From: Sacculina carcini
Taxonomy: Eukaryota > Arthropoda > Thecostraca > Sacculinidae
Reading direction: 5' to 3'
Length of the DNA: 64,000 nucleotides
NCBI GenBank assembly: GCA_916048095.2
Contig: OU696595.1
Coordinates: 5,373,295 to 5,437,294 of the forward strand
Below are positions 5,153 through 64,000 of this stretch, piece after piece (positions within the stretch are counted from its first letter, which is position 1; each line of letters starts with the position of its first letter). The translations under genes and the position numbers were made by a program. The notes under the pieces are model-generated. The model saw only the letters and a list, made by a program, of their open reading frames with translations. It made no database searches and was not told the DNA's origin.

Positions 5153-5154
5153 CC

Positions 5155-5699
5155 CCGTGTGTGTGTGTGTATGTGTGTGTGCCGGTGTCTTATAATGTTT
5201 TCTTATATTATAATTGTTATGAATTTCAACCGAAATTAATTGAAAAGTAAAAAACTTTGATAATATATCAGAATAATTTTTTATTATCTCTCTTTTTCTT
5301 ACAATAAGCGTGCAGTTTTTTCCTAACATCTCCCTGGAATTGATTACTGCACGTTGAAATTGATTCAACGATCAAATATATATCACCAACAACAAACCAG
5401 AAACCAACAAACCAGAAACCACACGATGCTAAACACCAGGGCTAATTGTCTATGTAAAGTACAATAATTATATACTTGTGTACTGTCTACACAAAATATA
5501 ACAACTTATCATAATTTGCACAACAATAGAGAATAGTGAATTTGCAAAAAGCCAATTCTCAAGTGTATAAAACATAATAAACAAGTATATAATAATTTGT
5601 AATTTCAGTAGTAATCAAGCCAATAGAATTTAGCGCAGATATATTTTTTATATATATTTAAACACTATGGACAAATTTAGCGGAAACATTGTGTGTGTG

Positions 5700-15589: not shown

Positions 15590-17287
15590 TCAAATCCGCT
15601 CTTTCAGTAGCATTTCATTTACTTTGGCCTTGAATTTGTTCAAATTGTTCTGCGAGAAAGCCTCCTCCTTCAACGTGTTCCAAGTAGACACAGTGGCCGG
15701 AAGAAAGCAACGTTGGAATTGTTTTGTACGACAACGAATTGGAGCCATGCACTGGGAATGCTGTTTGGATGTAAACCGTGTGCTTCTTGCTGCCACGAAA
15801 TCATCAGGAATTGACTTGCTCATCGGATGATGGTCGTTGTGCTTGATCTTGTACAGCATGCACACACTGCTGACCTTTCGACGATGGCAAAGATCACCAA
15901 GAACCAAGTCACCACAGAGGAACTTGCAGGTTCTAACAACTCTGTTGATGAGATTGAGGTGACAATCCGCAGCAGAAGACCACACGGGGGCGCAGTACTC
16001 CAGAATAGGCAAAATGAAACAGCGAAAACAACTTTTTGAGATTGTGCTGCTACCGAACATCCGATATGCCTTTCTTATAATTCCCAGTTTCCGCGATGCC
16101 GAACAAACTAGCTTCCGAATGTGACTCTCAAACGTGAGCTTTGAGTCTACATGTACTCCCAATATTTTGAGCTCATCACACACGTTGAGTTGGGCGTCAT
16201 TTATGAGGATAGCTCCATGTGAAGGCTGAACGGTACGTGACCTAGAAACCAACAAGCATTTAGATTTCGAAGTGTTCAGCATCATATTCCACCTCTCACA
16301 CCATTTCAGGACGCTGCTGAGATCGTCGTTGACCGTTTGACGCACCTGTGGTCTGTCCGAAGGAGATGAAATTACAGCCATCAAGGTGATATCATCAGCA
16401 TATCCATATACAGGGTTGCGTGTGGTTGTGTACAGGTCAGCGGTGTAAATGTTGAACAAAATAGGACCCAACACACTTCCCTGCGGCACACCGGACACAA
16501 TGCTCTGCCAGCCACTGTATGCTCCATCGATGGCAACACGTTGTACGCGATTGGATAGAAATTGATGCAAAACACTTAGCAAACGGCCGCCGACTCCAAT
16601 CTTTCTCAGTTTTTGCAACAAGCCCTGGTGGCTCACACGGTCAAATGCTGCCGAGAAATCCAACTGCACAATCCAGGCCTCACTGCCTTTGTCTAGCACT
16701 TGCTGGAGCTCGTGCGTGATAGTAAGCAGAGCGTCAGTCGTGCTGAGTTTTTTGCGGTATGCAAATTGGTTTTCCGACAGCAGATTGTTGCTCTCCAGGT
16801 ACTTGGACAGTCTGGAAGATATCAAGTGCTCGAATATTTTGGACAGAATCGGCGTAATTGATATTGGCCGGTAGTTTGCAACATCAGCTGAATTGGTTCC
16901 TTTTGGTATGGGCGTGATATTCGCAACCCGCCAACATGATGGAAACGAACCAGTCTTCATCAAGCGCCTGAAAAGAGCACTGAGCTTCGGAGCTAGAGTA
17001 TCTGCCGTGTTCTTGAAAAATAGCGGAAACATATTCAGAGAGTCTGTTCCTCCGTGGGCATCAAGGTCTTTCATGAGATTCGCCACTTCTTTTGATCGGA
17101 AGGCAATGCCTTTGATTTTCGGGGCGAGGACAGATGAATCGTCAGACGGAATGGACCCTTGACATTGCTTGGTATTGAAGTAATCCATAAGCAACTCTGC
17201 CTTCTCTGTTGGGTTGATTTTGAGCTCACCGTTCGCTGAAAATAAAGGAGGGACAGACAGGTCATGTCCAAACACTGACGATTTCAA
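15590..17287 (-). CDS. LINE reverse transcriptase (565 aa)
   Basis: RT with ANYRPISITPILSK (137-150), motif A QLDFSAAFD (208-216), motif B SGVPQGSVLGP (265-275) and motif C YADD (296-299). A long C-terminal domain includes CLLVSRSRT and LKILGVHVDSKLTFESHI. It is uninterrupted and GC-rich compared with its flanks, which marks a recent insertion. It belongs to a lineage distinct from the RT frames at 3324 and 9135. Confidence 0.92.
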   Translation of the reverse strand: MKSSVFGHDLSVPPLFSANGELKINPTEKAELLMDYFNTKQCQGSIPSDDSSVLAPKIKGIAFRSKEVANLMKDLDAHGGTDSLNMFPLFFKNTADTLAPKLSALFRRLMKTGSFPSCWRVANITPIPKGTNSADVANYRPISITPILSKIFEHLISSRLSKYLESNNLLSENQFAYRKKLSTTDALLTITHELQQVLDKGSEAWIVQLDFSAAFDRVSHQGLLQKLRKIGVGGRLLSVLHQFLSNRVQRVAIDGAYSGWQSIVSGVPQGSVLGPILFNIYTADLYTTTRNPVYGYADDITLMAVISSPSDRPQVRQTVNDDLSSVLKWCERWNMMLNTSKSKCLLVSRSRTVQPSHGAILINDAQLNVCDELKILGVHVDSKLTFESHIRKLVCSASRKLGIIRKAYRMFGSSTISKSCFRCFILPILEYCAPVWSSAADCHLNLINRVVRTCKFLCGDLVLGDLCHRRKVSSVCMLYKIKHNDHHPMSKSIPDDFVAARSTRFTSKQHSQCMAPIRCRTKQFQRCFLPATVSTWNTLKEEAFSQNNLNKFKAKVNEMLLKERI

Positions 17288-17340
17288 CGTTGACCACCAT
17301 TTGTGGGCGTCATTGGCAGATGTTAGCTTTTCAGCAAGTC
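15590..17340 (-). mobile_element. LINE (Jockey/RTE-style RT), 5' truncated
   Basis: A minus-strand element with an AT-rich tail to about 15430. The RT frame is open from about 17338 (SANDAHKWWSTLKSSVF) down to the stop at 15590. Upstream sequence is unrelated AT-rich DNA, so ORF1 and the endonuclease are absent. Confidence 0.82.
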
Positions 17341-27653: not shown

Positions 27654-27985
27654 GGACTCGGTGGTGTAGTGGTAGCACATCCGCCTCACAAGCGGTAGAT
27701 CCGTGGTTCAAATCCCGGCTGAGGAAAATTTCTTTAGGCGAATTATATAATCCAACAGCCCCTGTCCACCCAGCAGTAAATGATGGTACCAGATATCAGT
27801 CATAAGTTGTTTCATGCATTCTGGGGAGGTGGTCCTCTCTAATACGTCTTCCGTTATTGTGGCGTCATTGCGTGGAGAGGGTTGGTTCTGCGGTGACAGC
27901 GAGCTGCACGGGACACACCTGTGTGTGTTCATAAGCTTCGGCTTCTTGCCGTGTAGCAGCTGTCACTTGAGACATTAAGCCTTTA
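27654..27985 (+). mobile_element. tRNA-Val-derived SINE, copy B
   Basis: Head with GGTGTAGTGGTAGCACAT and box B GGTTCAAATCC, plus the full body ending TGTCACTTGA then TTAAGCCTTTAA. It starts 14 bp after the (CAA)n tail of the LINE fragment. Confidence 0.85.
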
Positions 27986-29662: not shown

Positions 29663-35411
<5,749 letters not shown>

Positions 35412-39720: not shown

Positions 39721-39997
39721 ATGGCGTGTAGTGAGCAGATTGTTTCTCCGTCGTCCGTTTGTAACATAGAAAACAGTGTCGTTGGTGAGGAACTGTTTCG
39801 CCGTATAGATGGCGCTGTGGAGACATTCTGGCGACAGGCTGCCGTTGTGAAGTGTAGCGGCGCCGGCGCTGATAAATGCTACGATTATCTACTGAAAATA
39901 CTGCTGGTGGGAGATAGCGACGTGGGAAAGCACGAGATTTTGAGTTTGTTATCGGCTGAACAGCGAGAACCAGCGTTCATCACCAACGCTAGTCCAG
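39721..39997 (+). CDS. Rab40: Rab40 exon 1: extension and P-loop
   Basis: ATG at 39721 follows CACCTAGA; no upstream in-frame Met is visible. 92 codons plus one base; donor GTCAGC from 39998. The first 50 residues ([20 protein letters not shown] region) have no counterpart in vertebrate Rab40, where the P-loop begins near residue 20. Confidence 0.85.
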
Positions 39998-42900
39998 GTC
40001 AGCGGCCAATGCCAGAACAAGATTAGCTCTTTCCCGACAATTGGCTGGCTAGCCACCCATAGGACTTGATGCAGTTTTTTGTCAACTACACACGGAGCAA
40101 TGGTGACAGAATTCCTTGAGCGATGGTGACAGAATATCTAGATTAAGTTTCTTCCATTGCTGGGGATCTAGATATTCTGTCACCATCGTTCAAGAAATTC
40201 TGTCACCATTGCTCCGTGTGTAGTTGACAAAAAACTGCATCAAGTCCTATGGGTGGCCAGCCACCCAATTGTCGGGAAAGAGTTAAGAGAAAGGAGAATG
40301 ATTGGAAGAAGAATAAGAGCAAGGAGAATGTGATTGGATAATGATTGAAAGAATAATATGAGATTGGATAATGATTGAAAGAATAATATGAGATTGGATA
40401 ATGATGGCAAGAAGAATAAGTGATTGGATAATGATTGAAAGGAGAATGATGGATTGGATAATGATTGAAAGAATATGGGATTGGATAATTTATTGAAAGA
40501 AGAATAGGTGATTGGATAATGATTGAAAGGAGAATGAGGGATTGGATAATGATTGAAACCAGAATAAGAGATTGGATAATGATTGAAAGAATATGGGATT
40601 GGATAATTTATTGAAAGAAGAATATGAGATTGGATAATGATTGAAAGGAGAATAAAGCAAGGGATAATGATTGAAACAAATATTGAGGGAATGGAGATTT
40701 AGGGGAAAGGAGAATGATAGAAAGAAGAATCCGATGAATATATATATATCTCTCTCTTTCTCTCTCTCTAAGGTCTGATTGTTTCCTAATTCTGTCTTCT
40801 ATGTGTGTGTGTGTGTCTCTCTGTCTCTCTCTGTGTGTTTGTGTGTGTCAGGATGTCGCACTACTGTCATACTGTTGGACGGCAAGCGGGTCAAGTTACA
40901 GATGTGGGACACATCGGGACAGGGTCGTTTCAGCACTATTCTGCGCTCTTACTCACGTGGCGTGCAGGGTGTTCTTCTCGTCTACGACATCACCAACAAG
41001 TGGAGCTTCGACTCACTGGCTCGCTGGCTCAAAGAAGTCGACGAGGTGCGAGGCAGCAGTAATTCGTGCCTTCCTCAAGGGGGACTTTGTGAGCAGTCAT
41101 TTGTGCATGCACGGGTGCTAGGGGGATGGAAGATTCGATGGTTTTTGTGCTGCTTTCGAACCAGTCTTCAAATGGGAAATATGGATAACGCAAAAGATAT
41201 GGAGACGAATTCAAGACAAGATGACTTTTAAGGATGGGGTTGTATATGATAGTCTGCAATAGAGTGCAAATGTGCAATTTATGTTGCTCAAATTGTGTTG
41301 ATGAAATTGAACAAAACGCCAAATTATTCAGTTTGCAAGTTCTTATTAAATTAATTATAAAACAGTATTCAGCGTTTTTAATCTACAATGGTAAAAGTTA
41401 AACCGGAAAATATTTCTACCTTTTAATTAAAAGTATTTATACTAAAATAGTATACTTTTATACTTTAAATAATATATAATATTCTATTTTTATACTGAAA
41501 TTATACTAACAAAGTTTCTGGGCGGCAGCATGCTCCTGGTATTCTAGAAATCAATTATCTACAACGTTAAGAGTTAAGCCGGAAAAAGTATTGCATTTTA
41601 TAATACAGTAAATTATACTAAAGTTATACTTGAATAAAATATTACTAATTATACTAAAAATTAGTTATACTATAATTAAATGATACTAATTACACTAAAT
41701 TATTATTATACAAAATTATACTAAAAATATTTATACTAAAATTACACTTGAATAAATGTCAGTAATTATACTAAAAATTAATTATACTAAAATTTTCTTG
41801 AATGAATGTCAATTATTATACTAAAATTATACTTGAATAAATGTCAGTAATTATACTAAACATTATCTATATTAAAATTATACTTGAATAAATGTCAATA
41901 ATTATACTAAAATTATACTAAAAATTATTTATATTAAACTTATACTTCAATAAATGTCAGTAATTATACTAAAATTAATTATATTAAAATTATACTGATA
42001 AAGTTTCTGGGCGGCAGCATGCTCCTGGTATTCCCAAAATACTGGTCGGCAACCGGTGTCATTTGGCGCACCGACGACGTGTTTCGCTGGCCGACGCCGA
42101 GAATTTGGCCGCCCAGCATGAGATGGCTTTCTTTGAGCTGTCGCCGCTGTGCAACTATAACGTGCGGGAGAGTTTCACCGAGCTCAGCCGACTGGCGCTG
42201 CACAGAAACGGCATGGACCGAGTGTGGAGGACCAGCAGAGGTGCTGTCACGTGCATATATCTCGGCATTGTCATACACTCGCACCTTCAAATAGCGGAAT
42301 CGAACGAACCGCGAAAAAATGTGCTATTTGGAAGTGTAATCCACATGTATTTGATTGGTTGCTGATTGGGACCAAGAAATTATTCCGCTATTTGGAGGAT
42401 CCACTTGACTTATATACTGACACATTGACACAGTTATATACTGACACATTGACACAGTTATATACTGACACACTTATATACTGACACATTGACACACTTG
42501 TATATACTGACACATTGACACACTTATATACACTGACACACTTATATATACTGACACATTGACACACTTATATATACTGACACATTGGCACACTTATATA
42601 TACTGACACATTGACACACTTATATACACTGACACACTTATATATACTGACACATTGACACACTTATATACACTGACACACTGACACACTTATATATACT
42701 GACACACTTATATACTGACACATTGACACATGGACACAGTTAAATACTGACACATTGACACACTTATATACTGACACACTTATATACTGACACACTTATA
42801 TACTGACACACTTATATACTGACACACTTATATACTGACACACTGTTTGTTTATATATCTGTCTGTCTCTCATGCTGTTTTGCTTGTGTTTGCTGCGGTG

Positions 42901-43863
42901 TGCGTTTCTGTTTCTGTTCATCGTTTCCTTCTCTGCCTGCTGCGTTTTGTGTTTCTCTCCATCGTAGTTCATTTTCTTCTACCTCACTTTTCTGCTCTTG
43001 TTATTGTTTGTTTAGCTTTGTTCAACCTCGTCTCTTGGTCTGCTTATGATTAAGCTTTCTACCTCTCTATTCCTCTTTCTCTATTATTCTTTTCTTTCTG
43101 TCAATCCCACTTTTCACTGCTTCACAATCGAGGGAAACTCAACAATACGACAATTATTTTGTTTTTCTGGGTGTTCTATATATGGAAATTCCAATGGGGG
43201 AATATATTGTTGTGGAAATTGAATTTCTATGATCTTATACTCGAACACAACATAATGCTGACAAATATTTTATCTATCAATAACTTTTTCCTCTGTCGTT
43301 TATTGCGATCGCTTAATTGAAATGTTTATCGTTGGTTATTTTGTTAGAAATTATTTATTAATTTACAATGAACCTGTTTCATGTGTTTGTTTTTATTCAA
43401 TTTGTCCTGCATTTTGTCTGTTAGTTATTTCTGTTTTCTCGAGGAGTAATATCGAATAGTAAAAGTAGGAATATACTTTTTCATAATTTCCATATATTTC
43501 GATGTAATATAAATATAATATTTCCGTTGTTACGTATTAACTCAGTATTTTTTTTGTTTTTTCTCTCCTGTGTCTCTTGCAGTTTTAAGCTTACAAGAGT
43601 TGTGTTGTCGTCGCATTGTATCATGTTCCACTGTCTACACCATTGAACAACTGCCTCTTCCGGCGCAGTTGCGAAACTATTTGAAATCGTACGCAATGTG
43701 CGGATTTCGTACCCACTCACAACAGCCAACGGCAGCCGGTGCTCGAGCCAATATGGCTCGTGGCACCTCCACTCAGCGCGCCTTCAAACACCGACACAAA
43801 ATTATCACACCCGACACTTACAGACAACCGCGCACCCACACACGTGGTTGTGTAATATTATGA
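39721..43863 (+). CDS. Rab40: Rab40-type small GTPase with SOCS box (four exons)
   Basis: Exons: 39721-39997, 40852-41045, 42018-42240, 43583-43863; phases 1, 0, 1 agree and the protein is 324 residues. It has an N-terminal extension of about 50 residues, [16 protein letters not shown] (P-loop 64-70, followed by His rather than Ser/Thr as Rab40 proteins also lack), the Rab40 signature WDTSGQGRF (111-119), [16 protein letters not shown] and ILVGNR. The SOCS box follows ([14 protein letters not shown] with a Cul5-box-like LPLP), then a basic tail ending in CVIL, a CAAX prenylation signal. Rab40 proteins are substrate adaptors of Cullin-5 ubiquitin ligases at membranes. Fly Rab40 has the same LSLQELCCR segment. 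Introns hold a large hairpin, minisatellites and a duplicated splice site. Confidence 0.92.
40027..40282. mobile_element. Fold-back MITE with 117-bp arms
   Basis: Arms 40027-40143 and 40166-40282 are inverted copies differing at about four of 117 positions, with a 22-nt loop. The ends are CTCTTTCCCGACAATTGG and its complement; TTA flanks both sides (40023-40025 and 40283-40285), suggesting a 3-bp TTA target like that of PIF/Harbinger elements. It lies in Rab40 intron 1. Confidence 0.85.
40288..40735. repeat. ATTGGATAATGATTGAAAG minisatellite
   Basis: About 14 variant units of 29-36 bp (GATTGGATAATGATTGAAAG plus AAGAATA-type spacer) follow the fold-back element directly. GATTGG is also an inverted CCAAT word. 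Confidence 0.88.
40852..41045 (+). CDS. Rab40: Rab40 exon 2: switch II region
   Basis: Acceptor TTTGTGTGTGTCAG; donor GAG|GTGCGAGG. Encodes [19 protein letters not shown] and the WDTSGQGRF switch II, ending KEVDE. Open reading continues into the intron to 41231 but leaves homology at the donor. Confidence 0.92.
41385..42000. repeat. ATTATACTAAAA minisatellite with duplicated splice site
   Basis: Irregular AT-rich units (ATTATACTAAAATTATACTT, GAATAAATGTCAGTA) fill intron 2. At 41511-41544 a 34-bp copy of the exon 3 acceptor and first 16 exon bases is embedded; a GTTAAACCGGAAAA word at 41399 and a related one at 41573 mark a tandem duplication of intron sequence. Confidence 0.85.
42018..42240 (+). 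CDS. Rab40: Rab40 exon 3: guanine-binding motifs
   Basis: Acceptor CTGGGCGGCAG; begins [13 protein letters not shown] (equivalent of the NKxD region), then [20 protein letters not shown] and [16 protein letters not shown]. Donor GTGCTG from 42241, phase 1. Confidence 0.92.
42288..42394. mobile_element. Small MITE with 13-bp inverted ends
   Basis: CAAATAGCGGAAT (42288-42300) and ATTCCGCTATTTG (42382-42394) are exact inverted copies; 81 bp lie between. It sits 47 bp after the exon 3 donor of Rab40. Confidence 0.7.
42405..42845. repeat. TATATACTGACACA satellite
   Basis: Words CTTATATACTGACACA and CTGACACATTGACACA alternate for about 440 bp in Rab40 intron 3. They share the CTGACACA core with the arrays at 21.1-21.9 kb and 62.9-63.5 kb. 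Confidence 0.93.
43583..43863 (+). CDS. Rab40: Rab40 exon 4: SOCS box and CAAX tail
   Basis: Acceptor TGTGTCTCTTGCAG. Encodes [37 protein letters not shown], a basic low-complexity linker and RGCVIL followed by TGA (43861-43863). The Leu end of CVIL favours geranylgeranylation. The stop codon is the first triplet of a TGACGTCA palindrome. Confidence 0.93.
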
Positions 43864-47152: not shown

Positions 47153-47155
47153 ATG
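47153..47155 (+). CDS. Start codon at the 3' end of a leader exon
   Basis: GCTGCAAAAATG is followed at once by the donor GTAAGAAT. The next exon begins exactly with ATG after CTGTACAG, so splicing would give Met-Met-Tyr. The leader before it (from about 46940) is plausible 5' UTR. If this exon is not used, translation would start at 48089. Confidence 0.45.
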
Positions 47156-48372
47156 GTAAGAATTATATTTTTCATTTTCTTTTCATCATTTGTCTTAATT
47201 TATTTTGTATTCTCCTATTTTTTGTTTTTATTTTATTATTTGCTTAGTTCTTTCAAGAATTTCAAGTATTATTCTCACAAAAACGCGTGCTTTTACATTT
47301 AGATCGCAAATTCGAACAAAAATTAATGATTGAGCGAACATATAATTTCTTTATGATGTTGTTTAATTATTTTTTCATCATAAACTTTGTCATCTCAGTG
47401 AGACTAGCATTTACTAAGCCTTTTAAACAAGTGTAGATTTGTGTCGAGGCTCGGGGGGATGACAGCCATCATTTATTAGTGTTCAAAGTTGACTCAGTTG
47501 GTCAATTGCATCAACTATTTTCAGCCTAGTCAATTACAACACATATATACCTCAATTGAATGAATATTGCATATAATTGCACACACACACACTTGTCGTG
47601 TATTGTTATATATTTGCTATGTTGATTTTGATGATAATATACCCAATGAACTGAACTCAGCAGAATTCTCGGGGGGTATAATTGCATATTCAAAACCCCC
47701 ATCCAATTTACGTTAAGAATAACAAACCAACTCCAAAATAATTGTTATATAAAATTATTAGACACTTATTAGCATAAATTAACTTATTTGATCACTAAAA
47801 ATACAGATAGAATCATTTATGTACTGATTTCAACATGTCGATAATATACGGTAAATGTTGGTTGATGTGTTCATATTGTTATCATATGGGAACATAACTG
47901 TAACTCAAGAACTCATTGTTCGAATGCTTCAATATTTTCACTGAATATATACGTTGGGTGTTTGAGACGATCTGTGAATTTTGATTGAAATCCATCCATA
48001 TTTTCTATACCTGGCATGATATAGGGTTAAAATGAGATGCCAGTGTAAAGTTAAAATTTATTTGACGCGTTGAATTCAACCTGTACAGATGTATCGTGGG
48101 TTAATTGACTGCTTGTGCATATTTCTTCTCTGCTTCAGTCAGACATCAGGTGGGATAATTAAATTATCTTCTACCAGCAGTAAATAATTTAATTTCGCCA
48201 ATATTCTCGTGAATACTTTATTATCAATTTTCATTTTAATTTACCGTATCTGTATGTGTTTGTATTTGAAAACGTATAGCTACAATCATATTTGTATTAT
48301 GCCTTCGTGTATATGTCTGTCTGTAATTGTTGATGCATTTGTATATACGTGCGTGTGTGTGTGTGTGTATTA

Positions 48373-48408
<36 letters not shown>

Positions 48409-48519
48409 CGCCCATTCATGCATGGCTTACGATCTGTCAATTATTTCTTAGACAACGTAGGAGTTTTCGCGGTAAGGCCCTCCAGACAGTTCGCAAACAC
48501 ACACCCACAAACACACCCA

Positions 48520-48552
<33 letters not shown>

Positions 48553-49973
48553 GCAATCATTAAAATCCACTGACATACCAATATACACAGAGATATAGCA
48601 ACACACACACTCTCTCTCTCTCTCTCACACACTCGATAGCAATATTTCACGCACAAATCAGTCGATGCAATGATGAATAGTCGTGCACGTGCACGCCAAG
48701 TGAAAGTACCATCCTGCCGGGTGCAACCTGTAAGCTCGGGTCCGTCGCGAATTCCGCTCGCACGCAAAAATCTACTCGTAAATAAAAGCCAATTTAGCCA
48801 CTACACATAATTCCCCTCTCGCTCTTACTTTCTTACTCTTTCTCTCTCTCTCTCTCTCTGTGTTTGTGTGTGTGTGTACTCACCTATTAGTACTCAGCTA
48901 TTTGTTTAGCACAGGAGATGAGCTATGCTCGTACTGTCCTGTCTCCAACCAACCCTCTAGTAACCTATCTTCCCTGAAATTCCCAGTATTTCACACAATA
49001 TCCACTATATCTCTTCAAAATTTCCTCCTATGATGTTAGCTCCTACAACATCCTCCCCAATAACTGATTCCAGTGTGTTTGTGTGTGTGTGTGTGTATGT
49101 TAGTGCATAAAAGGTTTTGATTAATATATATAATAACCATGTTTTTTACTTTTTTGTTTGGAATCTGGTTTAAATTTTGCATGAGTTCAACTGTTACAAT
49201 ATTTTAATTTTGTGTGATTCCAGCAAACTGCTAATATTGTGATTTTCATCAATCTGTTTTGTGATTTTTATACTGTATTCGTGTGAAAAATATACCTCTT
49301 TATAATTTTTATTATTGTCTTATTAACATTTACCTAAACAATGACTGATTGCTAATAAATTAACTGTTAATTTTATGCTGAACGTCTGAATTGGTTGATT
49401 TGCGCAATATCTTCTGGACAGGTCATCTGGTGACCTTGACACTGAGTCAGGATGACATCATCACCAGCACATCACGTCCTCCATCATCCACATCTTCAAT
49501 CACATCTACCAGGTCAACCAGCTCCTCTCAAAAACATAAGATATTGTAAGTTTAATAATATTATATTTAAATTTATTGTAAAATAATATTGTGGCTTTTT
49601 ATTTATAATTTTATTTTACATATGTCTATGCTCATGTATTTTATAAAATTCACATCTTTATCGTGTATAAGTTTGCGTTTTATGCTTAATATCAAGATGT
49701 ATGGAGATTGCAGTTGCATTTAATTTGAAATTTCTTCCAATTGCAACACTTGTTAATTTATTTTAATTACGAAAATATTATCATCAGAACTTTATTGTTT
49801 AATTATACTTTATAAAAATATATTTATTTATTTCAATATATGCATATGTGTATATATTTAATTTATATAGGTAATATATCGCGGGGTTGTCGTGTTGATT
49901 GTGCGCGTGCATATATGCACATGTGATCCTCTCTCAAGGCTGCATTGTTATTCCAACTGCCCTCTAAGGCTTC

Positions 49974-50031
<58 letters not shown>

Positions 50032-50884
50032 ATACACACACACACACACATACATACACACATTAGATACACACGGACACAGCAGGATTCGTTGATGATA
50101 TGGTACATGCTAATACACACACACATACACACGTACACACAAACATGCACGTACATACACACACACACACTAGATACACACACACACACATACACGTGTA
50201 AGTAGGTTCAATGCTAAATATGAGTTGAAAATAGTTGCGGTCTTGTTGAGAAGTGTATCAAAGACAGAACTTTGATAATGCAACAGTGAATGTGTTTGAA
50301 TGTAATCTAAAGATCTGCATAAAGAAGACATCAAGGTTCAAATCTCATCGAGTCAGAATTTTCTACCATAAATAATGATTATTATTATTACTGTTATTAT
50401 TATTAAAACTAATGGACATGTGGTGAAATGGGAAGACGTTATAAATTACATGCAACTGCAATATCCATGCATCTTGATACTCAACAAATACACACACACA
50501 CACACACACACAGACAGTGAGAACACTAATATTATCAGAAAAGGATCATTGGAAAACAAAGCGCATGTTTTTGTTTTCCCTGTTTTTTTATATGTCATTA
50601 TGCAACATATATTACGTTTTTAATGAATGAGTTTCACACGAATAAACCAAAACTGTATGTTTATGTGTTTGTGTGTGTGTGTGTATGTGTGTGTGTTTTT
50701 CAGTAAGCTAGCGCCGTATTCTTCGGGTGGATTGCAAGAAAAATTGCACGAAGTGAGTTGAAATCTTGCAATTTGACACAGATTAGTTATTACACATACA
50801 CATCAACAAGGCACAAAATCAGAGCAACTAAACTAAAAAGTATCTGGTTGGTTGTGTGTGTGTGTGTGTGTCAGTGTGTGTGTT

Positions 50885-50915
<31 letters not shown>

Positions 50916-50922
50916 CAGTGTG

Positions 50923-50972
<50 letters not shown>

Positions 50973-51368
50973 GATGTATATAATGATATATCAACTGACA
51001 TATTTCCTTGCAGGTGTTCATGTGTGTGTGTGTGAGTGTGTGTGTGTGTGTCAGTGTGTGTGTGTGGGCGTGTACGTGTGTTGGTGAGACTATAATTTTG
51101 AGCTATGTCAAGATCAATTGACACGCACTCACACATCGAGGTCACTGTCGATACAAGCACACTGGTCAAAGGTCAAAGGTCAAAGGTCAAATGTCATCTT
51201 ATCCAGCCGACACACACACACACGTGTTTGTGTATGTGTTCACATAAAAAGATGTTGTCTTACTGACCATAGGTCATCACACACACTGACTGACACACAC
51301 ACACACATACACACAAACAAACACACACTTAGAGACAAATCGTCAAATGCAAACACACGGCCATATAT

Positions 51369-51447
<79 letters not shown>

Positions 51448-51763
51448 TATTTACAGTTAATGTTCCAGCCATTACTTGTACGCATGAAAGAATATTCATC
51501 CTTAGATGGACTAAACACACACACACACACAAACACACACACATACTCATATGCAAATGAAGATCTAAACGGTGATGGCTGAATGTGCATATACAAAGAC
51601 ACACAGACACACAAACTCACCTCATCGTAAATACACTTATGGAGAGTGTGTTTAATGCTATGACATTGGCTAGAATTATTATCATAATAAGGTTGCTAGG
51701 GCGAACTTTTTGATATTTTGATTGTAAATTCTGATGTAATTTTGTGAAAAATTATTTTCACTT

Positions 51764-51830
<67 letters not shown>

Positions 51831-54800
51831 ATACTTCAATATACTTGACTGAATTTTCACTTCCTGGGTTTCCTGGGCTTCCTGGGTTCATCGGGTTGTT
51901 TGTTTTTTTTCGCTCCTGTCACTCTACGGAATCCGTCCTTATTTCAGTTACTCATGAAATCTTATCTAAATTTTCCTATCGTCAATCAGTTCTCCTTGTT
52001 CTTCTCGACATGTCTCTAGCCTTCGATCTTGTCAATCATGCCATTCTCATCAATGATCTTTCTTCTCTGGGTCTATCCTCGTCAGCATTGTCTCTCCTCA
52101 AATCCTATCTCTCTGGTCGCACTTTTTCAGTAAACTTCAATTCAACTGTTTCAAAATCTGCTTGTCTTATTTCTGGTGTCCCTCAAGGTTCTATCTTGGG
52201 TCCTACTCTTTTCAATCTTTACATGTCTTCTCTCTGTCCTGTCCTTTGTAAATACAACATTCCTTTCCATATTTATGCCGATGATATACAACTCCTAATT
52301 CCTTGTCCTTTCTCTCATGCCAATCTTCTCAATGATATTCTCTCTGATATTACGTCCTGGACCACCTCTCGTCGCCTCATTCTCAACACTTCTAAGTCTG
52401 AATTTCTTATCCTTCACCCTCCGCGCATTTCTCCTCCATTACTCCCAATCGCTGTATCTTCCTCTGTTCGAAACTTGGGTGCTATCTTCGATTCCAACTT
52501 GTCCTTTTCAAACAATGTTGTCTCTATTTCGCGCACCTGTCGTTTGATTTTACGCAGTCTATACCCTATTCGATCCTGTTTAGACCAGCCTTCTTCTATT
52601 AAATTAATACAGTCTCTTGTTCTCTCTCGTCTTGATTATTGCAGCTCACTCCACTACATTCTTACCAACAAATCCCTGAAAATCCTTCAAAAAATAATTA
52701 ATCAATCCTGTCGTTTTGTGCTCCATCCTACTCCTTGCCGCCATACCTCTCAATTCTTGTTCCAATTCCACTGGCTTCCCATCATTCCTAGGATTCACTT
52801 TCGGCTGTGTTGTCTCATATATAAAATTCTGCACAATAGCTCTTCCCCGTCCTATCTTTCTGATCTTCTAGTTTCTTCTAATGCCTTTAATTCTCGTGTT
52901 CATCGTCCTTTATCCTGTCCTCGCGCTATTAACGAGTCACCTTGGTCCGCAAAATCCTTTTCTTTCTATGCGCCTCGGGTCTACAATGATCTTCCTTCCT
53001 CAATCACTTCCTCTTCATCCTTTAGTAGATTTTCCTCCTCACTTCGTAAATATCTTTTTGCTAAATCTTTTGATCCCACTTCTCGCACTCTTACACCTTA
53101 CGCTTCCCTATGACTCTAATTTACAATTACTTATGTTTTTACTTATTTTCATTTTATTTATCTCCATTATTATTGAAAAAAAATTTCGTTTCTGTGAATT
53201 TTCTACTTCTTTTCTCACATCTTGATATCGTGTACTGTTGTTTCTAATTGTTGTCTCTTTCGCGCTTGTTTCTGTGTGAGCGCTATACAAATACATTGTT
53301 GTTGTTGTTGTTTTAAAACCGATTTTACCGTTTAATACAAGCAAATTAAGCATTTAGGATGTAATTAAACACATATTTGACCATTATATTCCTGTTAATG
53401 CAATGATAATATTGTCATATTATGAATGTGAATATTATTTATTAATTTGATTGATTGATTACGATTTGATTAATATGATTTATTGGTCATGATTAGATTA
53501 AATGTGACACTTCAATTGGTATTTATTGTATTGTACATTTATTTTTATAAAAAAAATGGAGATTTAACATTATTGTACATTTAATATTTGTTTTATTATA
53601 TATATTTACTGCTGATCATAGCGCGAGATTTTCACGTCTATTTGTTGGCTTGCTGGTGGGTTTTGACTGAAGCGACAAGCAGTTACGTAAAATTAACCTG
53701 GGCGACAGTCGAATACGAAATAATAACGAAAGTAAGCTATATGTTAATGAACTTTAGAGCAGGAAAACTGCAATTTATAATATTCTTGTTGTTTCTGCTT
53801 TGCAGGTCGCCAATTTCGTCCACCCCACAAGAGCTGAGATGCCGAAAAATGACCGAATTTCCCCTGCCAGAGGTCACAACGTGTTGCGTGGAAGTTCGCT
53901 GCGTCAAAAACGTCACAATCGGAACGGCGACTTTCGTGGCGCAGCCAACATAAGAGTGGTTCGAATGCGGCGCACCCGTAATTTGATCATCAACGGCAAC
54001 ACAACAAGAGGGGCCCACAATTCTCAACCCTCAATCAGCGTGGTCGTCCGCCCCATTCGTGTTATTTCTCACCAATCACACCATCGCGACCACCTTTCTC
54101 CGTTTGCCAGCCACAATAGGTCATCTCATCGGCGAACACGACCGAGAATGAGGCAAACATACGACGGCCACACCCGTCGTCATGACAACTATCACGAGTC
54201 GAATATCACTGGTGGCAGATCCGTGTTCAGCCGGCGAAAACTCGGCAGTCTGGCACAAGTACAGGAGGATTTTGTTGACAACCACAGTGAAGTGCCGACG
54301 GTGGATTCGTTGCAAATCGATGACCTCCAAGACAAGACAACTACTTGGTCTCCGGGTCGACATCCATCTAGCAAGGCCAACGTGCCAAGAGAAAGTCACT
54401 TCAACGTTTCAAGCTCCACAGAAGTCCCGAAGAAAGCAACGTCGCGCCGGCCGAACGATTTGAACACACCTGACGGCGATAGATCGCTGCAGGATTCTCG
54501 TAGACGACAGCGTTTTCCGGCAGCAGGTCACCATAGGATCGGACGGATTATTTCTCCGTCTGCCACAAGAGCTGTTACTGCCGAAGTACACACCTCCACT
54601 ATTGAGTCACACCAGACACTACCGAGCACAAGCACAACAGAATCACCAGGTATATCTCGACTTCATTCGGGCACAAAGAGAACACGAGGCTCTCGAAGAA
54701 GGTTTCGTCATCGGCATTTGGTTGTAGACAGGATGAGGTCGGGATCTGTTGATGATTCAAGAGATATCAACGATCGTGATGGCAACGTTGAACAACAGAA

Positions 54801-57800
54801 GTCCACTAGCCCGGCCGCAGTAATTCCTGAAGCAGGAATTGAGCTCGATCCAAGTCATCCACCGTTTAATTTGTCGCTTACTGTAGTGAATTCTGAAGTG
54901 ACCCCAACATCACCAGCAGCCACTCACAGTAGGACGTTGAGAAGGCTCAGCAATCATAGATTGTCTATTAGGAGACCAATCACATCACCTATCAAGCATC
55001 ACCATCGTATTCAAGATAAATCTAGTGTAAAATCAAGTTTGTCTGCAGTGGGGCACTCGTTACGGCTCAATAATCCAGTGGCTCCTGGTACAAAAGAACA
55101 GCTGGTACGCGAAAATGTCGGTGAAATCCAACAGAGCAATACAAATCGTAAAGACAACACAATATTGGATTTGACCGCACAAACGAGAAAGCTTGAACAA
55201 ACAATAGAAACCACTATAGATGACGACTTAAAACAAGAAAAATTTACTAAATCACGTGAAGAACATGTAGATGATCCGCTATCAAATACTCATCGGTCAC
55301 GCTTGGCACCAAAATCCAATAGCTCAAAATTTGGAAGCGAAGCAGTGGAGGCGAATGAGAATGAGGAAATATCAATGATGACGATGAAGTCTGCTACAAA
55401 TAGTAACACAATGCTCAACGCGTTCAAACACAAACTCGAACGATCCAGGAAAAGTCATTCTTCAAGCATTCATTCTCATAGACTCGCTGACACTGCAGAA
55501 ACTCAAAAACCGAACAAATCAGAAGTACTCGCTTCTACTGCTGAAACTCAAGCTGCTTATAATCCGGTAATTAAGCCCGGTGTGAGTCGTTCATTAAATC
55601 ACAATATTTCTCGAAAGTTACTCAAGTTGAATGACAGTGGGAATCATCGAATTGATGCACTGTCCACCACTAACACTTTGACAAGACTTACTTCCCGTCT
55701 TCAAAATGCACACTTTCTAGGCCGGACTAAATCAGGTTCATCACAAAATAAAGATTATTTGGAGAATACAAATACAAGAGGACATCGTTCGGAAAACCCA
55801 TTGGGGAGTTACCAATTTATGACAAAAAGATTCAGACAGCACATTCCATTGCAAATAAGAAACAGACAACCAAAAAAATTCCCAAGTGAAGGTGTGCCAC
55901 GAGAGCAAGTGCCTGCAACAATTGTGCAATTGAAGAATGTTGCAGCTACAAGATCACCTAGCCAGACAACAAGGGCGGATATTGCAGCTAGGAGAGGACA
56001 ATTGCATAATTCATCATCTCCAACATATAGAACAATCTCGAAGGAACTCGTAGGAAATGGAGCACAAATTAGGAACATGAAACCACCTCCGTACGAGAAC
56101 AATGAATCAAGAGGAAAGTCTAAACACGAAGGTGCCGATGTCTATTATGTATCGACCAGTGAACATAGCTCAGCCTTCATTCCTCGGAAATTCAACCACT
56201 CAAAAGCCAGGTATGATCATATTGAACGCAACTCGTCCACAATCCCCACTCTTCAAAGAGCACTGACTAGGCAACATCACTCGTCAATGCGACGTTTACC
56301 GAGTCTTTTCAGGCCGTGGAAGCGGCTAATAAATCGCACAAATGATTCGTTTCCTGGCTCCACTGTTAAACAATCTCAAACACAGCAGCCGATGATGGAG
56401 AAATCGTTGCCTTTAGACAATGATTATCACAGGGATGGTGACATCAACAAATCAACGAAGATTATACATCCAATTGCGAAAATACATGCTGCTCCGCCAC
56501 TTGCTGATAGTACAGATAATATAATTATTTCAAGTTCTCATAGGCCAGCAGATCCACTAAGTACAGATGGTCAACTGATATCGCACGTGTTTAAAGCACA
56601 GAAAACCTCATCGGCTGGAAACGTCTTGCCCCAGGGAACATTCAGAAGAAAACCTTCACTGAGAGGAAGTCTTGTTGAGCGACTCAGAGGGTCAAAGTTC
56701 AAGGATACTCTAGAGGAATCAACTGAAGCTGTTCATAAGATTTTTGCAACTGTAGAAGAACAAATTGACAGATCAAACAAATCAATTAAACCTTTCACTG
56801 TTGTTACAATGACAAGTGACACGATTAAGGCTGTATATCCCTATGAAACATCTCCGAATATTTCAGAGAAATCAGTTAACAATATGCTGCTGAAGAAAAT
56901 TGAGTCGGACTCGAAGAAAAACTCCTCTGTCAATGAAGGATTGATCAATCAGACGCAAGAAGTGAAAACAGCAAATAACACTTCAATTAGCAACACTGTA
57001 CAGCATAGCTCAAATTATATCAGAAAATACCAAATTGGAGTGCCCGGAGAGCGCAAGAACGCTTCCTTTCTTCCAGTCAAGATGGTTAAATTTGAGGCTG
57101 TTAGCATTGAGAGAACTGCAAGCACAAATATAGCGCAGAATGTTTCTGAGCCAGGCACGCAAAATAGAACTGACCACATGGGAAATTCCGCCGACCAAAA
57201 CAGTCAAAATTTCTCAGTCAAACTGCTAGCTGATCCCGTTGAATCTACAATCTCTGATCAAACATTCACCTTGGCTCCGAACACAATTGAAACTATCTAT
57301 TTGGACAATGATTTGAGTCATTCGGACCTGTCTATCGACCAACAAAAATCCATTGTACTAGATCCTGAGAAATTGGTTGAAAGACAACGTGTTCATATAC
57401 CGGATAATTCAACCAATCAAGTAGAAGTGGGTGAAATAGGACGGAATTCCATCAGGAATGGGGAGCAAGCGAACCAATTGAGCAGTTCGCATAATAGAAG
57501 CATAGAAAGCAGTGAAATCCAACACAATGACGATATAAACAGAAATGGAATTGTGATCGATGAAGATTATAAAGCGAAACAGATCGTAAAATCGTCAACT
57601 GAAAAAACCAATGTTCCTCACTATGAATCAACATTGCTCAAGCTTTCAACTGTGACTATCAATGCACAAGATGTTTTTCCACAAACATCTGCACTTCTCG
57701 ACCAAGAAGAGATGACAGAAATACCACCAAACAACCACTTCAAGCCTGAAAAACCTCACAGTACGCATAGTTCACGGCAGCATACACAAGCCACAAGAAC

Positions 57801-58011
57801 GTTTGCTTGGGGTAGAACTCTGAGAACACAGAGTGCCGCATCGGAAAGACCAGATCCACCAGGATATTCTTCTGCTAACTCTCTCTATCTAGTTCCAAAT
57901 GATCTTTTCCAAGGCAACGCACAATTGATAGCTAGCGGAGGCGAAGTCAAACACGTTAATTTCACGACAACTGCTGTCTGCGTCTTGCTATTGTGTGTGT
58001 TTTGGAAGTGA
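47153..58011 (+). CDS. Predicted large secreted/GPI-anchored protein, about 1480 aa, family unknown
   Basis: Proposed exons: ATG-ending exon to 47155, 48089-48149, 49422-49545, 50704-50752, 53806-58011. All junctions are GT-AG and phases (0, 1, 2, 0) agree. The protein has a signal peptide (IDCLCIFLLCFS), a Ser/Thr-rich segment, then about 1400 residues rich in Ser, Arg, His, Thr, Asn and Gln. There are over two dozen N-glycosylation sequons, many RR/KR/RRR sites and no cysteine until the C-terminal hydrophobic tail. That tail (TTTAVCVLLLCVFWK after a small-residue site ASGG) resembles a GPI signal or a single membrane anchor. It looks disordered. I know no family with this make-up; function unknown. 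AATAAA occurs at 58119 and 58232. Confidence 0.68.
47156..48088. other. Intron 1 of the large surface-protein gene
   Basis: AT-rich, with no repeat or exon that I recognise. Confidence 0.45.
48089..48149 (+). CDS. Signal-peptide exon of the large surface protein
   Basis: ATG then a short N-region (YRG), hydrophobic core LIDCLCIFLLCF and polar SQTS, ending phase 1 before GTGGGATA. The length (about 20 residues) and core fit a secretory signal. Confidence 0.65.
48350..48625. repeat. TG, CA and CT tracts
   Basis: TG at 48353-48407, CA at 48497-48551 and CT at 48610-48626, all within intron 2. Confidence 0.9.
48885..49080 (-). mobile_element. LINE 3' end fragment
   Basis: The minus strand ends with GACAGGACAGTACGAGCATA and the TAGCTGAGTACTAATAGGTG block. 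The same tail occurs in the fragments at 62360 and, more diverged, at 85-200. Confidence 0.7.
49422..49545 (+). CDS. Ser/Thr-rich exon of the large surface protein
   Basis: Acceptor CTTCTGGACAG, donor GTAAGTTT from 49546. 41 codons: HLVTLTLSQDDIITSTSRPP then a run of Ser/Thr (SSTSSITSTRSTSSS) and QKHKI. Likely O-glycosylated. Phase 1 in, phase 2 out. Confidence 0.6.
49685..49765 (+). repeat. R3 repeat fragment
   Basis: ATCAAGATGTATGGAGATTG and the following block, in intron 3. Confidence 0.65.
49977..50190. repeat. (CA)n microsatellite block
   Basis: CA tracts with TACA interruptions over about 210 bp. Confidence 0.93.
50400..50510 (-). repeat. R3 repeat copy ending in a CA tract
   Basis: Reverse-oriented; ATGCATCTTGATACTCAACA leads straight into (CA)n at 50489-50512. 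Confidence 0.7.
50704..50752 (+). CDS. 49-bp exon of the large surface protein
   Basis: Acceptor GTGTGTTTTTCAG, donor GTGAGTTG from 50753. The first base completes TT|T (Phe), then KLAPYSSGGLQEKLHE. It ends phase 0, matching the start of the 4.2-kb exon. Confidence 0.6.
51163..51196 (+). promoter_or_regulatory. Tandem DR1 nuclear-receptor half sites
   Basis: TGGTCA (51163), AGGTCA (51170, 51177, 51184) and ATGTCA (51191) are each separated by one A. AGGTCA-A-AGGTCA is the DR1 element bound by HNF4, RXR and COUP-TF type receptors. It lies in intron 4 of the large gene. A heptamer microsatellite would look the same. Confidence 0.5.
51369..51445. repeat. (CA)n microsatellite
   Basis: About 76 bp of pure CA in intron 4. 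Confidence 0.96.
51768..51826. repeat. (AT)n microsatellite
   Basis: About 58 bp of pure AT, just upstream of the truncated LINE. Confidence 0.96.
51845..53113 (+). CDS. LINE reverse transcriptase fragment (422 aa)
   Basis: Motif A LLDMSLAFD (53-61), motif B SGVPQGSILGP (110-120) and motif C YADD (144-147), followed by the thumb and the C-terminus (YAPRVYNDLPSSI, ending RTLTPYASL). The first 20 or so residues (proline/glycine-rich) come from sequence outside the element. The palm lacks its N-terminal third, so this copy cannot be active. Confidence 0.9.
   Translation: MTEFSLPGFPGLPGFIGLFVFFRSCHSTESVLISVTHEILSKFSYRQSVLLVLLDMSLAFDLVNHAILINDLSSLGLSSSALSLLKSYLSGRTFSVNFNSTVSKSACLISGVPQGSILGPTLFNLYMSSLCPVLCKYNIPFHIYADDIQLLIPCPFSHANLLNDILSDITSWTTSRRLILNTSKSEFLILHPPRISPPLLPIAVSSSVRNLGAIFDSNLSFSNNVVSISRTCRLILRSLYPIRSCLDQPSSIKLIQSLVLSRLDYCSSLHYILTNKSLKILQKIINQSCRFVLHPTPCRHTSQFLFQFHWLPIIPRIHFRLCCLIYKILHNSSSPSYLSDLLVSSNAFNSRVHRPLSCPRAINESPWSAKSFSFYAPRVYNDLPSSITSSSSFSRFSSSLRKYLFAKSFDPTSRTLTPYASL
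51890..53315 (+). mobile_element. LINE (CR1/L2-like), 5' truncated, in intron 4
   Basis: Sense-oriented insertion in the intron of the large gene. RT coding starts abruptly near 51900 (FRSCHSTESVL) and the 3' UTR ends GAGCGCTATACAAATACATT plus (GTT)n at 53300-53312. This is the reference copy for the truncated tails at 25985, 29840, 44590 and 60470. Confidence 0.88.
53806..58011 (+). CDS. 4.2-kb main exon of the large surface protein (1401 aa)
   Basis: Acceptor TTTCTGCTTTGCAG (53792-53805), frame from GTCGCCAATTTC to TGA at 58009-58011. The frame is open for 1401 codons in DNA of ordinary base composition, which cannot be chance. Its N-terminal third is Arg/His/Ser-rich (RRTRNLI, SHRRTRPRMRQ, GSRRRFRHRHLV). 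The middle and end are Ser/Asn/Gln/Glu-rich with NxS/T sites. Only two Cys, both in the C-terminal hydrophobic tail. No repeat unit, coiled-coil heptad or known domain stands out. Confidence 0.9.
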   Translation, partial: VANFVHPTRAEMPKNDRISPARGHNVLRGSSLRQKRHNRNGDFRGAANIRVVRMRRTRNLIINGNTTRGAHNSQPSISVVVRPIRVISHQSHHRDHLSPFASHNRSSHRRTRPRMRQTYDGHTRRHDNYHESNITGGRSVFSRRKLGSLAQVQEDFVDNHSEVPTVDSLQIDDLQDKTTTWSPGRHPSSKANVPRESHFNVSSSTEVPKKATSRRPNDLNTPDGDRSLQDSRRRQRFPAAGHHRIGRIISPSATRAVTAEVHTSTIESHQTLPSTSTTESPGISRLHSGTKRTRGSRRRFRHRHLVVDRMRSGSVDDSRDINDRDGNVEQQKSTSPAAVIPEAGIELDPSHPPFNLSLTVVNSEVTPTSPAATHSRTLRRLSNHRLSIRRPITSPIKHHHRIQDKSSVKSSLSAVGHSLRLNNPVAPGTKEQLVRENVGEIQQSNTNRKDNTILDLTAQTRKLEQTIETTIDDDLKQEKFTKSREEHVDDPLSNTHRSRLAPKSNSSKFGSEAVEANENEEISMMTMKSATNSNTMLNAFKHKLERSRKSHSSSIHSHRLADTAETQKPNKSEVLASTAETQAAYNPVIKPGVSRSLNHNISRKLLKLNDSGNHRIDALSTTNTLTRLTSRLQNAHFLGRTKSGSSQNKDYLENTNTRGHRSENPLGSYQFMTKRFRQHIPLQIRNRQPKKFPSEGVPREQVPATIVQLKNVAATRSPSQTTRADIAARRGQLHNSSSPTYRTISKELVGNGAQIRNMKPPPYENNESRGKSKHEGADVYYVSTSEHSSAFIPRKFNHSKARYDHIERNSSTIPTLQRALTRQHHSSMRRLPSLFRPWKRLINRTNDSFPGSTVKQSQTQQPMMEKSLPLDNDYHRDGDINKSTKIIHPIAKIHAAPPLADSTDNIIISSSHRPADPLSTDGQLISHVFKAQKTSSAGNVLPQGTFRRKPSLRGSLVERLRGSKFKDTLEESTEAVHKIFATVEEQIDRSNKSIKPFTVVTMTSDTIKAVYPYETSPNISEKSVNNMLLKKIESDSKKNSSVNEGLINQTQEVKTANNTSISNTVQHSSNYIRKYQIGVPGERKNASFLPVKMVKFEAVSIERTASTNIAQNVSEPGTQNRTDHMGNSADQNSQNFSVKLLADPVESTISDQTFTLAPNTIETIYLDNDLSHSDLSIDQQKSIVLDPEKLVERQRVHIPDNSTNQVEVGEIGRNSIRNGEQANQLSSSHNRSIESSEIQHNDDINRNGIVIDEDYKAKQIVKSSTEKTNVPHYESTLLKLSTVTINAQDVFPQTSALLDQEEMTEIPPNNHFKPEKPHSTHSSRQHTQATRTFAWGRTLRTQSAASERPDPPGYSSANSLYLVPNDLFQGNAQLIASGGEVKHVNFTTTAVCVLLLCVFWK

Positions 58012-58321
58012 ATCTCGTGACGTATTTCTCCGGCAGCCTTCACAGGCAGGTGGCCATCTACACAACGCATTATTTCATTTTCATTGAACGGTATTTGATT
58101 GAAGTTAATGGTTGTCAAAATAAATTGTGGAATGAACGTAATTTGTTGAGCGTACGGGCATAAGGTTTCCAAGCCAAACGTATTATATAAGATTTAGTGA
58201 AATTGCGATACGATTTTGATATCAGACTGGAAATAAAGGATATCTCCATTCGAATGATGTAGTATTTTATGTTATTATTGCTTCAGGACTTATAATAAGA
58301 ACGATGATTGAATTGAATGTT

Positions 58322-58642
58322 AAAGGCAAGTGACAGCTGCTACACGGGAAGAAGTCGAAGCTTATGAACACACACAGGTGTGTCCCGTGCAGCTCGCTGC
58401 CACCGCAGAACCGACCCTCTCCACGCTATGACGCCACAAGGACGGAAGACGTATTAGAGAGGGCCACCTCCCCAGAATGCATGACACAACACATGACTGA
58501 TATCTGGTACCATCATTTACTGCTGGGTGGACAGGGGCTGTTGGATTATAGAATTCACCTAATGGAATTCTGCTCCGCCGGGTTTCGAACCACGGACCTC
58601 CCGCTTGTGAGGCGGGTGAGCTAACAACTGCACCACGGAGTC
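58322..58642 (-). mobile_element. tRNA-Val-derived SINE, copy E (full length)
   Basis: Head on the right (box B GGTTTCGAACC region at 58580-58592, CAC anticodon loop) and complete body. It lies between the large gene's 3' end and drk, on the minus strand. Confidence 0.85.
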
Positions 58643-59179
58643 CACAGAAACAAAAATAAAAAGAGGGAAGAACACATGAATGAGTGAATATTACACAATT
58701 TAAGTAATACAATTAACACAGATTAACACATCTGGAGCCATAGGATCAAAATGGGACCATCATATTCAATCAGGGTCTACGATAAATATATGCTGAAACA
58801 AGTTGTCGGAGAAGTCCGGAAAAGTTGCGTTGCGACAATGCCTGTGTCTGAGGCCATGAGAAATTCTAGGGGACCACATGGACTGTTTGTGGGGGTTCAC
58901 AAGTGTCGACTGAACAGAAGAACGAAATAATGTATTCACCAGCAACAACTCTATCACACCGTATTCACCGTACCACCTCTCACACTCGCAACACCCCAAG
59001 CTCCACTGACCCACGTCATTTTCCACATTGCAAAAGCGTCCTGCAAATTCTATTCCAAGCGATCCGATTGCACATACGCACACGCGCACAGGCTCACACA
59101 TACACACACACACACACACACAACAACGCGCAGACATTTGCAGAACCATTCATTCCGATTATATGCAACAATGAATGCA

Positions 59180-60216: not shown

Positions 60217-64000
<3,784 letters not shown>

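Follow-up and report, generated by a model that had tools for sequence, protein, structure and literature searches.

The described systems closest to the gene analyzed here are the vertebrate proteins Shadoo and PrP, mucin-type proteins with a glycosylphosphatidylinositol (GPI) anchor, the Drosophila protein Gfrl and the orphan genes of arthropods. Gfrl, in the parts of its description cited here (PMC3527400), has a signal peptide, a threonine-rich region, a weak GPI site and a short hydrophobic C-terminus. Homology detection failure explains many lineage-specific genes, according to the cited portion of Weisman, Murray and Eddy (PMC7660931). The gene in question lies in a stretch of 64,000 nucleotides from the arthropod Sacculina carcini (assembly GCA_916048095.2, contig OU696595.1, positions 5,373,295 to 5,437,294 of the forward strand), the whole of which is called the window; all positions below are those of the window. 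With roughly even confidence, and judging from sequence, we consider it a real, single-copy, probably fast-evolving gene of about five exons, the product of which would be a GPI-anchored, N-glycosylated, disordered surface chain. Its reading frame, its copy number in this assembly, its composition and charge layout, its cysteine pattern and its excess of glycosylation sequons are direct observations.

The terminal coding exon (exon 5; 53806..58011, plus strand) contains 1401 codons and a stop; it encodes a disordered, Cys-free ectodomain, first basic and then acidic, and a hydrophobic tail. It is enclosed in an open frame of 1417 codons (53758-58011, plus strand). When 500 random sequences, each of 4500 bases, were drawn from a first-order Markov model of 53701-58200, the largest open frame among their six frames reached 247 codons, with a mean of 135; the sequence-only reading of this DNA, which had found the exon in good reading condition, is borne out. 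The first 4200 bases of the exon show a 3-base periodicity of 17.8, and its seven 600-base bins give 2.2-5.8, compared with a median of 1.04 for 600-base bins across the window. None of the 113 microsatellite tracts of the window falls inside the exon, where about 8 would be expected at the window rate. Polyadenylation-type AATAAA signals follow the stop on the plus strand at 58119..58237 (starts 58119 and 58232), and a third AATAAA begins at 58655.

Upstream of this exon, four small exons can be joined to it in phase, giving a protein of 1480 amino acids without internal stops. The donors and acceptors of this chain were ranked among the 695 donors and 383 AG acceptors scored in 44-54 kb of the window; all the exons are on the plus strand. 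The first coding exon may be an ATG alone, followed by a gtaaga donor (47153..47155; donor rank 4/695); alternatively, translation may begin at the ATG of the next exon. The latter (48089..48149; donor rank 2/695, acceptor rank 69/383) is the predicted signal-peptide exon; it encodes MYRGLIDCLCIFLLCFSQTS, and its last base opens a Gly codon. It is followed by a Ser/Thr-rich exon, HLVTLTLSQDDIITSTSRPPSSTSSITSTRSTSSSQKHKI (49422..49545; donor rank 17/695, acceptor rank 36/383), which as a DNA probe has a single match in the genome, itself, and by a short exon, FKLAPYSSGGLQEKLHE (50704..50752; donor rank 8/695, acceptor rank 17/383). The acceptor of exon 5 at 53806 ranks first of the 383. The three upstream acceptors score between -1.4 and 2.1, and the sites beside the exons of the neighboring Rab40 and GRB2 genes span -3.3 to 6.3. 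When repeats (microsatellites and a long interspersed nuclear element, LINE) are masked, the five-exon chain ranks third of 22 signal-peptide chains, and exon 48089-48149 is used in 13 of the 14 chains listed out of these 22. Randomising the upstream sequence 200 times produced a chain of any kind in 44 cases, and in two cases one that scored at least 26.2, the score of the five-exon chain. Exon 48089-48149 is likely to be the signal exon; the exact upstream chain is a plausible prediction.

A copy of a short interspersed repeat (47961-48034), which has at least 38 other matches in the genome, some of them fragmentary, sits just 5' of the signal exon without reaching it. A second possible signal peptide, read in a different frame at about 53743-53950 (MLMNFRAGKLQFIIFLLFLLC...), was discarded, since its hydrophobic run merely translates the polypyrimidine tract that belongs to the exon-5 acceptor. 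It ends at a stop within a Cys-containing frame, and the only Pfam match of this frame was DUF3704, below the cut-off (14.3 vs 21.9 bits, E 0.042).

The 1480-residue model contains 12.7 percent Ser, 8.4 percent Arg, 8.3 percent Thr, 6.8 percent Asn and 5.5 percent Pro, and has an isoelectric point (pI) of 10.0. Its five Cys are at residues 9, 11 and 16 in the signal peptide and at 1471 and 1476 in the tail, with none between; the 1401 residues of exon 5 therefore hold two, both in the final hydrophobic stretch, as the sequence-only reading had stated. That reading had also counted more than two dozen N-glycosylation sites, and 30 sequons of the form N-x(not P)-S/T are present, every one in exon 5. 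The mature chain has 29 of them, compared with 18.6 +/- 3.8 in local shuffles (P 0.005), and the reversed motif is at chance (19 vs 18.9 expected). Because the sequons are above chance while the reversed motif is not, this supports secretion, which had already been proposed and with which the hydrophobic N-terminus and the confinement of Cys to signal and tail also agree. The heavy glycosylation proposed at the same time may be read from the sequon excess.

The di- and tribasic sites had been called many and taken to suggest cleavage. The number of dibasic pairs, 31 vs 29.4 +/- 4.6 in local shuffles, reflects composition only, and because these pairs are at chance, cleavage at dibasic sites is unsupported. 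Furin-type RX[KR]R sites do not exceed the shuffles either (2 vs 2.2; residues 112-115 and 132-135), nor do SG, RS and SP/TP motifs. Self-BLASTP of the protein returned the full-length match alone and thus no internal repeats, and amidation-type G[KR][KR] sites number zero. With no repeats, no G[KR][KR] and dibasic pairs at chance, the protein does not have the features of a neuropeptide or prohormone precursor.

The charge is distributed unevenly along the chain. Residues 23-500 have a net charge of +38, residues 501-1000 of +25, residues 1001-1200 of +10 and residues 1201-1456 of -14, and the membrane-distal third holds 33 His. In a charge-hydropathy analysis the protein falls on the disordered side (mean hydropathy 0.398, below the boundary of 0.428), and its composition likewise agrees with the disorder that had been suggested. 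AlphaFold2, run on a single sequence of the first 1200 of the 1401 exon residues, gave a mean predicted local distance difference test score (pLDDT) of 31.8, two weak helices and no confident fold; a run without relatives is a weak test that agrees with disorder and is otherwise uninformative.

The strongest hydrophobic stretches of the protein are its two ends. At the N-terminus a signal-peptide-like hydrophobic core is encoded by exon 2, although the gene model behind it is not unique. At the C-terminus is a candidate GPI-type signal, ASGGEVKHVNFTTTAVCVLLLCVFWK (57931..58008, plus strand), recognized by its hydropathy peak and by the usual rule for GPI signals. The highest hydropathy of the protein over 11 residues, 2.99, is at 1468-1478, and the best value for a start between residues 31 and 1439 is 1.72. 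The candidate omega site is S1456-G-G, with 24 residues after S1456; these comprise the polar spacer EVKHVNFTTT and a hydrophobic tail of about 13 residues. This order, small omega residues, then a polar spacer, then a hydrophobic tail that reaches the C-terminus, is what the rule describes, and the earlier suggestion of a GPI anchor is consistent with it.

A 601-base DNA probe, the whole exon-5 protein and its last 300 residues each matched one place in the 264-Mb genome, itself, and neither the whole exon 5 nor the last 300 residues found a paralog there at E up to 10; the counts of genome matches are lower bounds, and the search scores the best candidates only. The multiple genome copies typical of a transposable element were not found for exon 5. 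Exon 5 has no match at E up to 1 in Pfam, PDB sequences or NCBIfam (bacterial and archaeal models), in keeping with the earlier statement that no family is recognisable, and exons 2 and 3 have no Pfam match at E up to 0.1. Literature searches in an open-access library turned up nothing that describes a protein of this sort, which does not imply that it is unpublished. For a long disordered protein, we take homology detection failure as the default explanation of a missing family. A missing match is common for fast-evolving disordered proteins, and the novelty of the protein is not shown by it.

It is very improbable that exon 5 is instead the C-terminal exon of a known multidomain receptor with missed folded exons, for example an arthropod GDNF-receptor-like protein. 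The idea draws on Drosophila Gfrl, for which the cited parts of PMC3527400 give a low-score GPI site, threonine stretches predicted to be mucin-type and a shared hydrophobic C-terminus. However, the Cys-rich GDNF/GAS1 domain (PF02351) was not found in the gene, and the genome search for it gave two matches, which lie elsewhere, on contigs C15 and C1, with none on C36; this link was rejected. Plus-strand stop-free pieces of at least 35 residues between Rab40 and exon 5, complexity-filtered and with the LINE span excluded, were inspected by eye rather than by a Pfam scan. CA/TG-repeat artefacts aside, no Cys-rich domain was seen among them, though a few pieces had four Cys.

From these data we infer that the transcript is spliced and that the product is exported, GPI-anchored and glycosylated and may bind polyanions. 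The product would enter the secretory pathway by a cleaved signal peptide, and its C-terminal hydrophobic tail would be swapped for a GPI anchor. The remaining chain, about 1,430 residues long, unfolded and N-glycosylated, would stand on the cell surface, where it could act as a charged polymer brush or tether with no folded binding domain. The distal basic part might stick to polyanions such as glycosaminoglycans, the extracellular matrix or the coats of eggs and sperm.

Several observations weigh against this reading. The first concerns codon usage in exon 5. The GC content at third codon positions is 0.383, compared with 0.577 in 588 conserved codons of the window. A base-position model, trained on the conserved codons of the neighboring genes' exons in the window, scores the true frame at -112 bits, and two reverse-strand frames score better (-50 and -25). 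The synonymous usage correlates with local composition (r = 0.83) and with the neighboring conserved genes (r = 0.57), and the wrong frames correlate with the latter at r = 0.61 and 0.54. Such composition-like usage could be compatible with a weakly expressed, fast-evolving gene, and it also cautions about function. Together with the negative base-position score it would fit a non-functional sequence, either an old pseudogene or a chance open frame. We give this explanation hardly any credence, because the 1417 codons are stop-free whereas 63 and 118 stops interrupt the exon in its remaining forward frames, and because Cys codons are avoided in the true frame only (2 vs 33 and 61 in the other two).

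The second group of observations concerns the upstream exons. Other chains outscore the five-exon model both with and without masking; without masking it ranks 72nd of 160, and the leaders of the best 12 of these 160 all cross CA/TG repeats. When every site had to reach 5 bits, a strict limit, no chain was found. The limits used (donor 2.0, acceptor -1.5) were chosen after the scores of the proposed sites were known, with the same limits applied to the null, and the splice matrices are approximations. The four upstream exons of the sequence-only reading fit in phase and give the 1480-residue product with a predicted signal peptide, but they are one of several possible chains. If they were spurious, the protein could start at the exon-5 Met (MPKNDRISP...) and be a cytosolic or nuclear, disordered, basic protein with a C-terminal tail anchor. 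Basic disordered chains, as here with a pI of 10.0, are common among cytoskeleton-binding proteins, and a short hydrophobic C-terminus suits tail-anchored ones. We consider this quite unlikely: the sequon excess and the Cys pattern speak against it, and an upstream exon is to be expected because none of the 383 acceptors scored over 10 kb is stronger than that of exon 5.

The third group concerns the surface chain itself. The sequon excess is confined to NxS (22 vs 11.7), and NxT is at chance (7 vs 6.9). Basic clusters of the heparin-binding type do not exceed the number expected by chance (XBBXBX 4 vs 2.6, P 0.26), so net charge is the one basis for the predicted polyanion binding. Furthermore, GPI signals with a Trp-Lys end, as in this tail, are unusual, and the final Lys is atypical. 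This end and the shortness of the hydrophobic stretch would also suit an exported protein whose tail is kept as a short transmembrane anchor, or a chain that is shed, i.e. a matrix or glue protein and not a GPI brush; the two RX[KR]R sites would permit some processing. This is an unlikely but serious alternative. No cytoplasmic tail extends beyond the hydrophobic stretch, the small residues S-G-G are suitably spaced for an omega site by the usual rule, and the RX[KR]R sites are no more frequent than expected.

The putative GPI-anchored chain is probably a lineage-restricted, disordered surface protein, ordinary in kind. In that case the absent family match is the expected outcome of fast evolution in a disordered protein, and its interest is modest unless orthologs reveal a conserved family. 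It is a more doubtful suggestion that the gene founds a family of arthropod surface proteins that is so far undescribed: giant polyampholytes with a GPI anchor, about 1,430 residues long, without fold or Cys, which act as a pure charged tether or brush. If expressed and surface-anchored, the product would clearly exemplify a surface protein of great length that has no domains, and composition, charge layout and the absence of Cys may be its only conserved properties. Such domain-free proteins escape family searches, and they are candidates for coats, glues and gamete recognition.

Three neighbors of the gene share its strand: a trypsin-fold homolog, a Rab40-like GTPase and, downstream, GRB2. 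The trypsin-fold homolog (34827-35408; gene region 30376-35408) matches Pfam Trypsin, and its best PDB match is a prophenoloxidase-activating factor. The usual active-site motif, GDSGGP, reads KAGSP in it, and because of this the serine-protease homolog is probably catalytically dead. The stretch 30376-30711 is rich in Cys and by eye resembles a CLIP domain, though Pfam gives no match for it. The second neighbor (39880-43860) has several exons and, by domain matches, encodes a GTPase of the Ras family that carries a SOCS box at its C-terminus, presumably Rab40. The GRB2/Drk-like gene (60217-63828 onward) has at least four exons by SH3 and SH2 matches; the best PDB matches of the fourth are GRB2 chains, and the gene probably runs past the window end.

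The intervals between the genes are rich in CA/TG repeats and in fragments of LINE reverse transcriptases. Among the open frames of the window, four long ones are LINE-like (3327-5189, 9138-10679, 15593-17338 and 51740-53110); three match RVT_1, with 9138-10679 assigned by eye, and 51740-53110 falls within the large intron of the five-exon model. Three tRNA-Val(CAC) calls (1005-1074, 27655-27726 and 58570-58642) are possibly tRNA-derived short interspersed nuclear elements. In the genome as a whole Chitin_bind_4, a family tied to arthropod cuticle, has 94 matches, as fits an arthropod; 20 of them, with near-equal scores, are clustered at C30:335968-429085, 17 of these on the minus strand and the other 3 on the plus strand. 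A genome search for COX1 gave no match, with 8 of 14 control genomes positive. A search for insect odorant receptors likewise gave none, but none of its control genomes was positive, so this negative does not show absence.

How does this gene compare with the known systems? It shares with Gfrl the layout described above, its own signal peptide and GPI site being predicted ones, and Gfrl differs by its Cys-rich GDNF domain. Like the mucin-type GPI proteins and other Ser/Thr-rich brushes, the chain is unfolded, has a Ser/Thr-rich N-terminal exon and contains 21 percent Ser plus Thr. Unlike mucins, which have tandem repeats dense in Pro, Thr and Ser, it is without repeats in the self-BLASTP, has modest Pro and is rich in Arg and His. 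The flexible arm of PrP and Shadoo resemble its predicted form in combining a GPI anchor with a disordered basic surface chain; this likeness is one of presumed working and not of compared sequence. Both are far shorter, whereas the chain here has about 1,430 residues and an acidic membrane-proximal block. With the orphan genes of arthropods it shares a codon usage close to composition, the single copy found and the lack of a match to any family in the libraries searched; beside typical members of this group, in our judgement, the present gene is unusually long.

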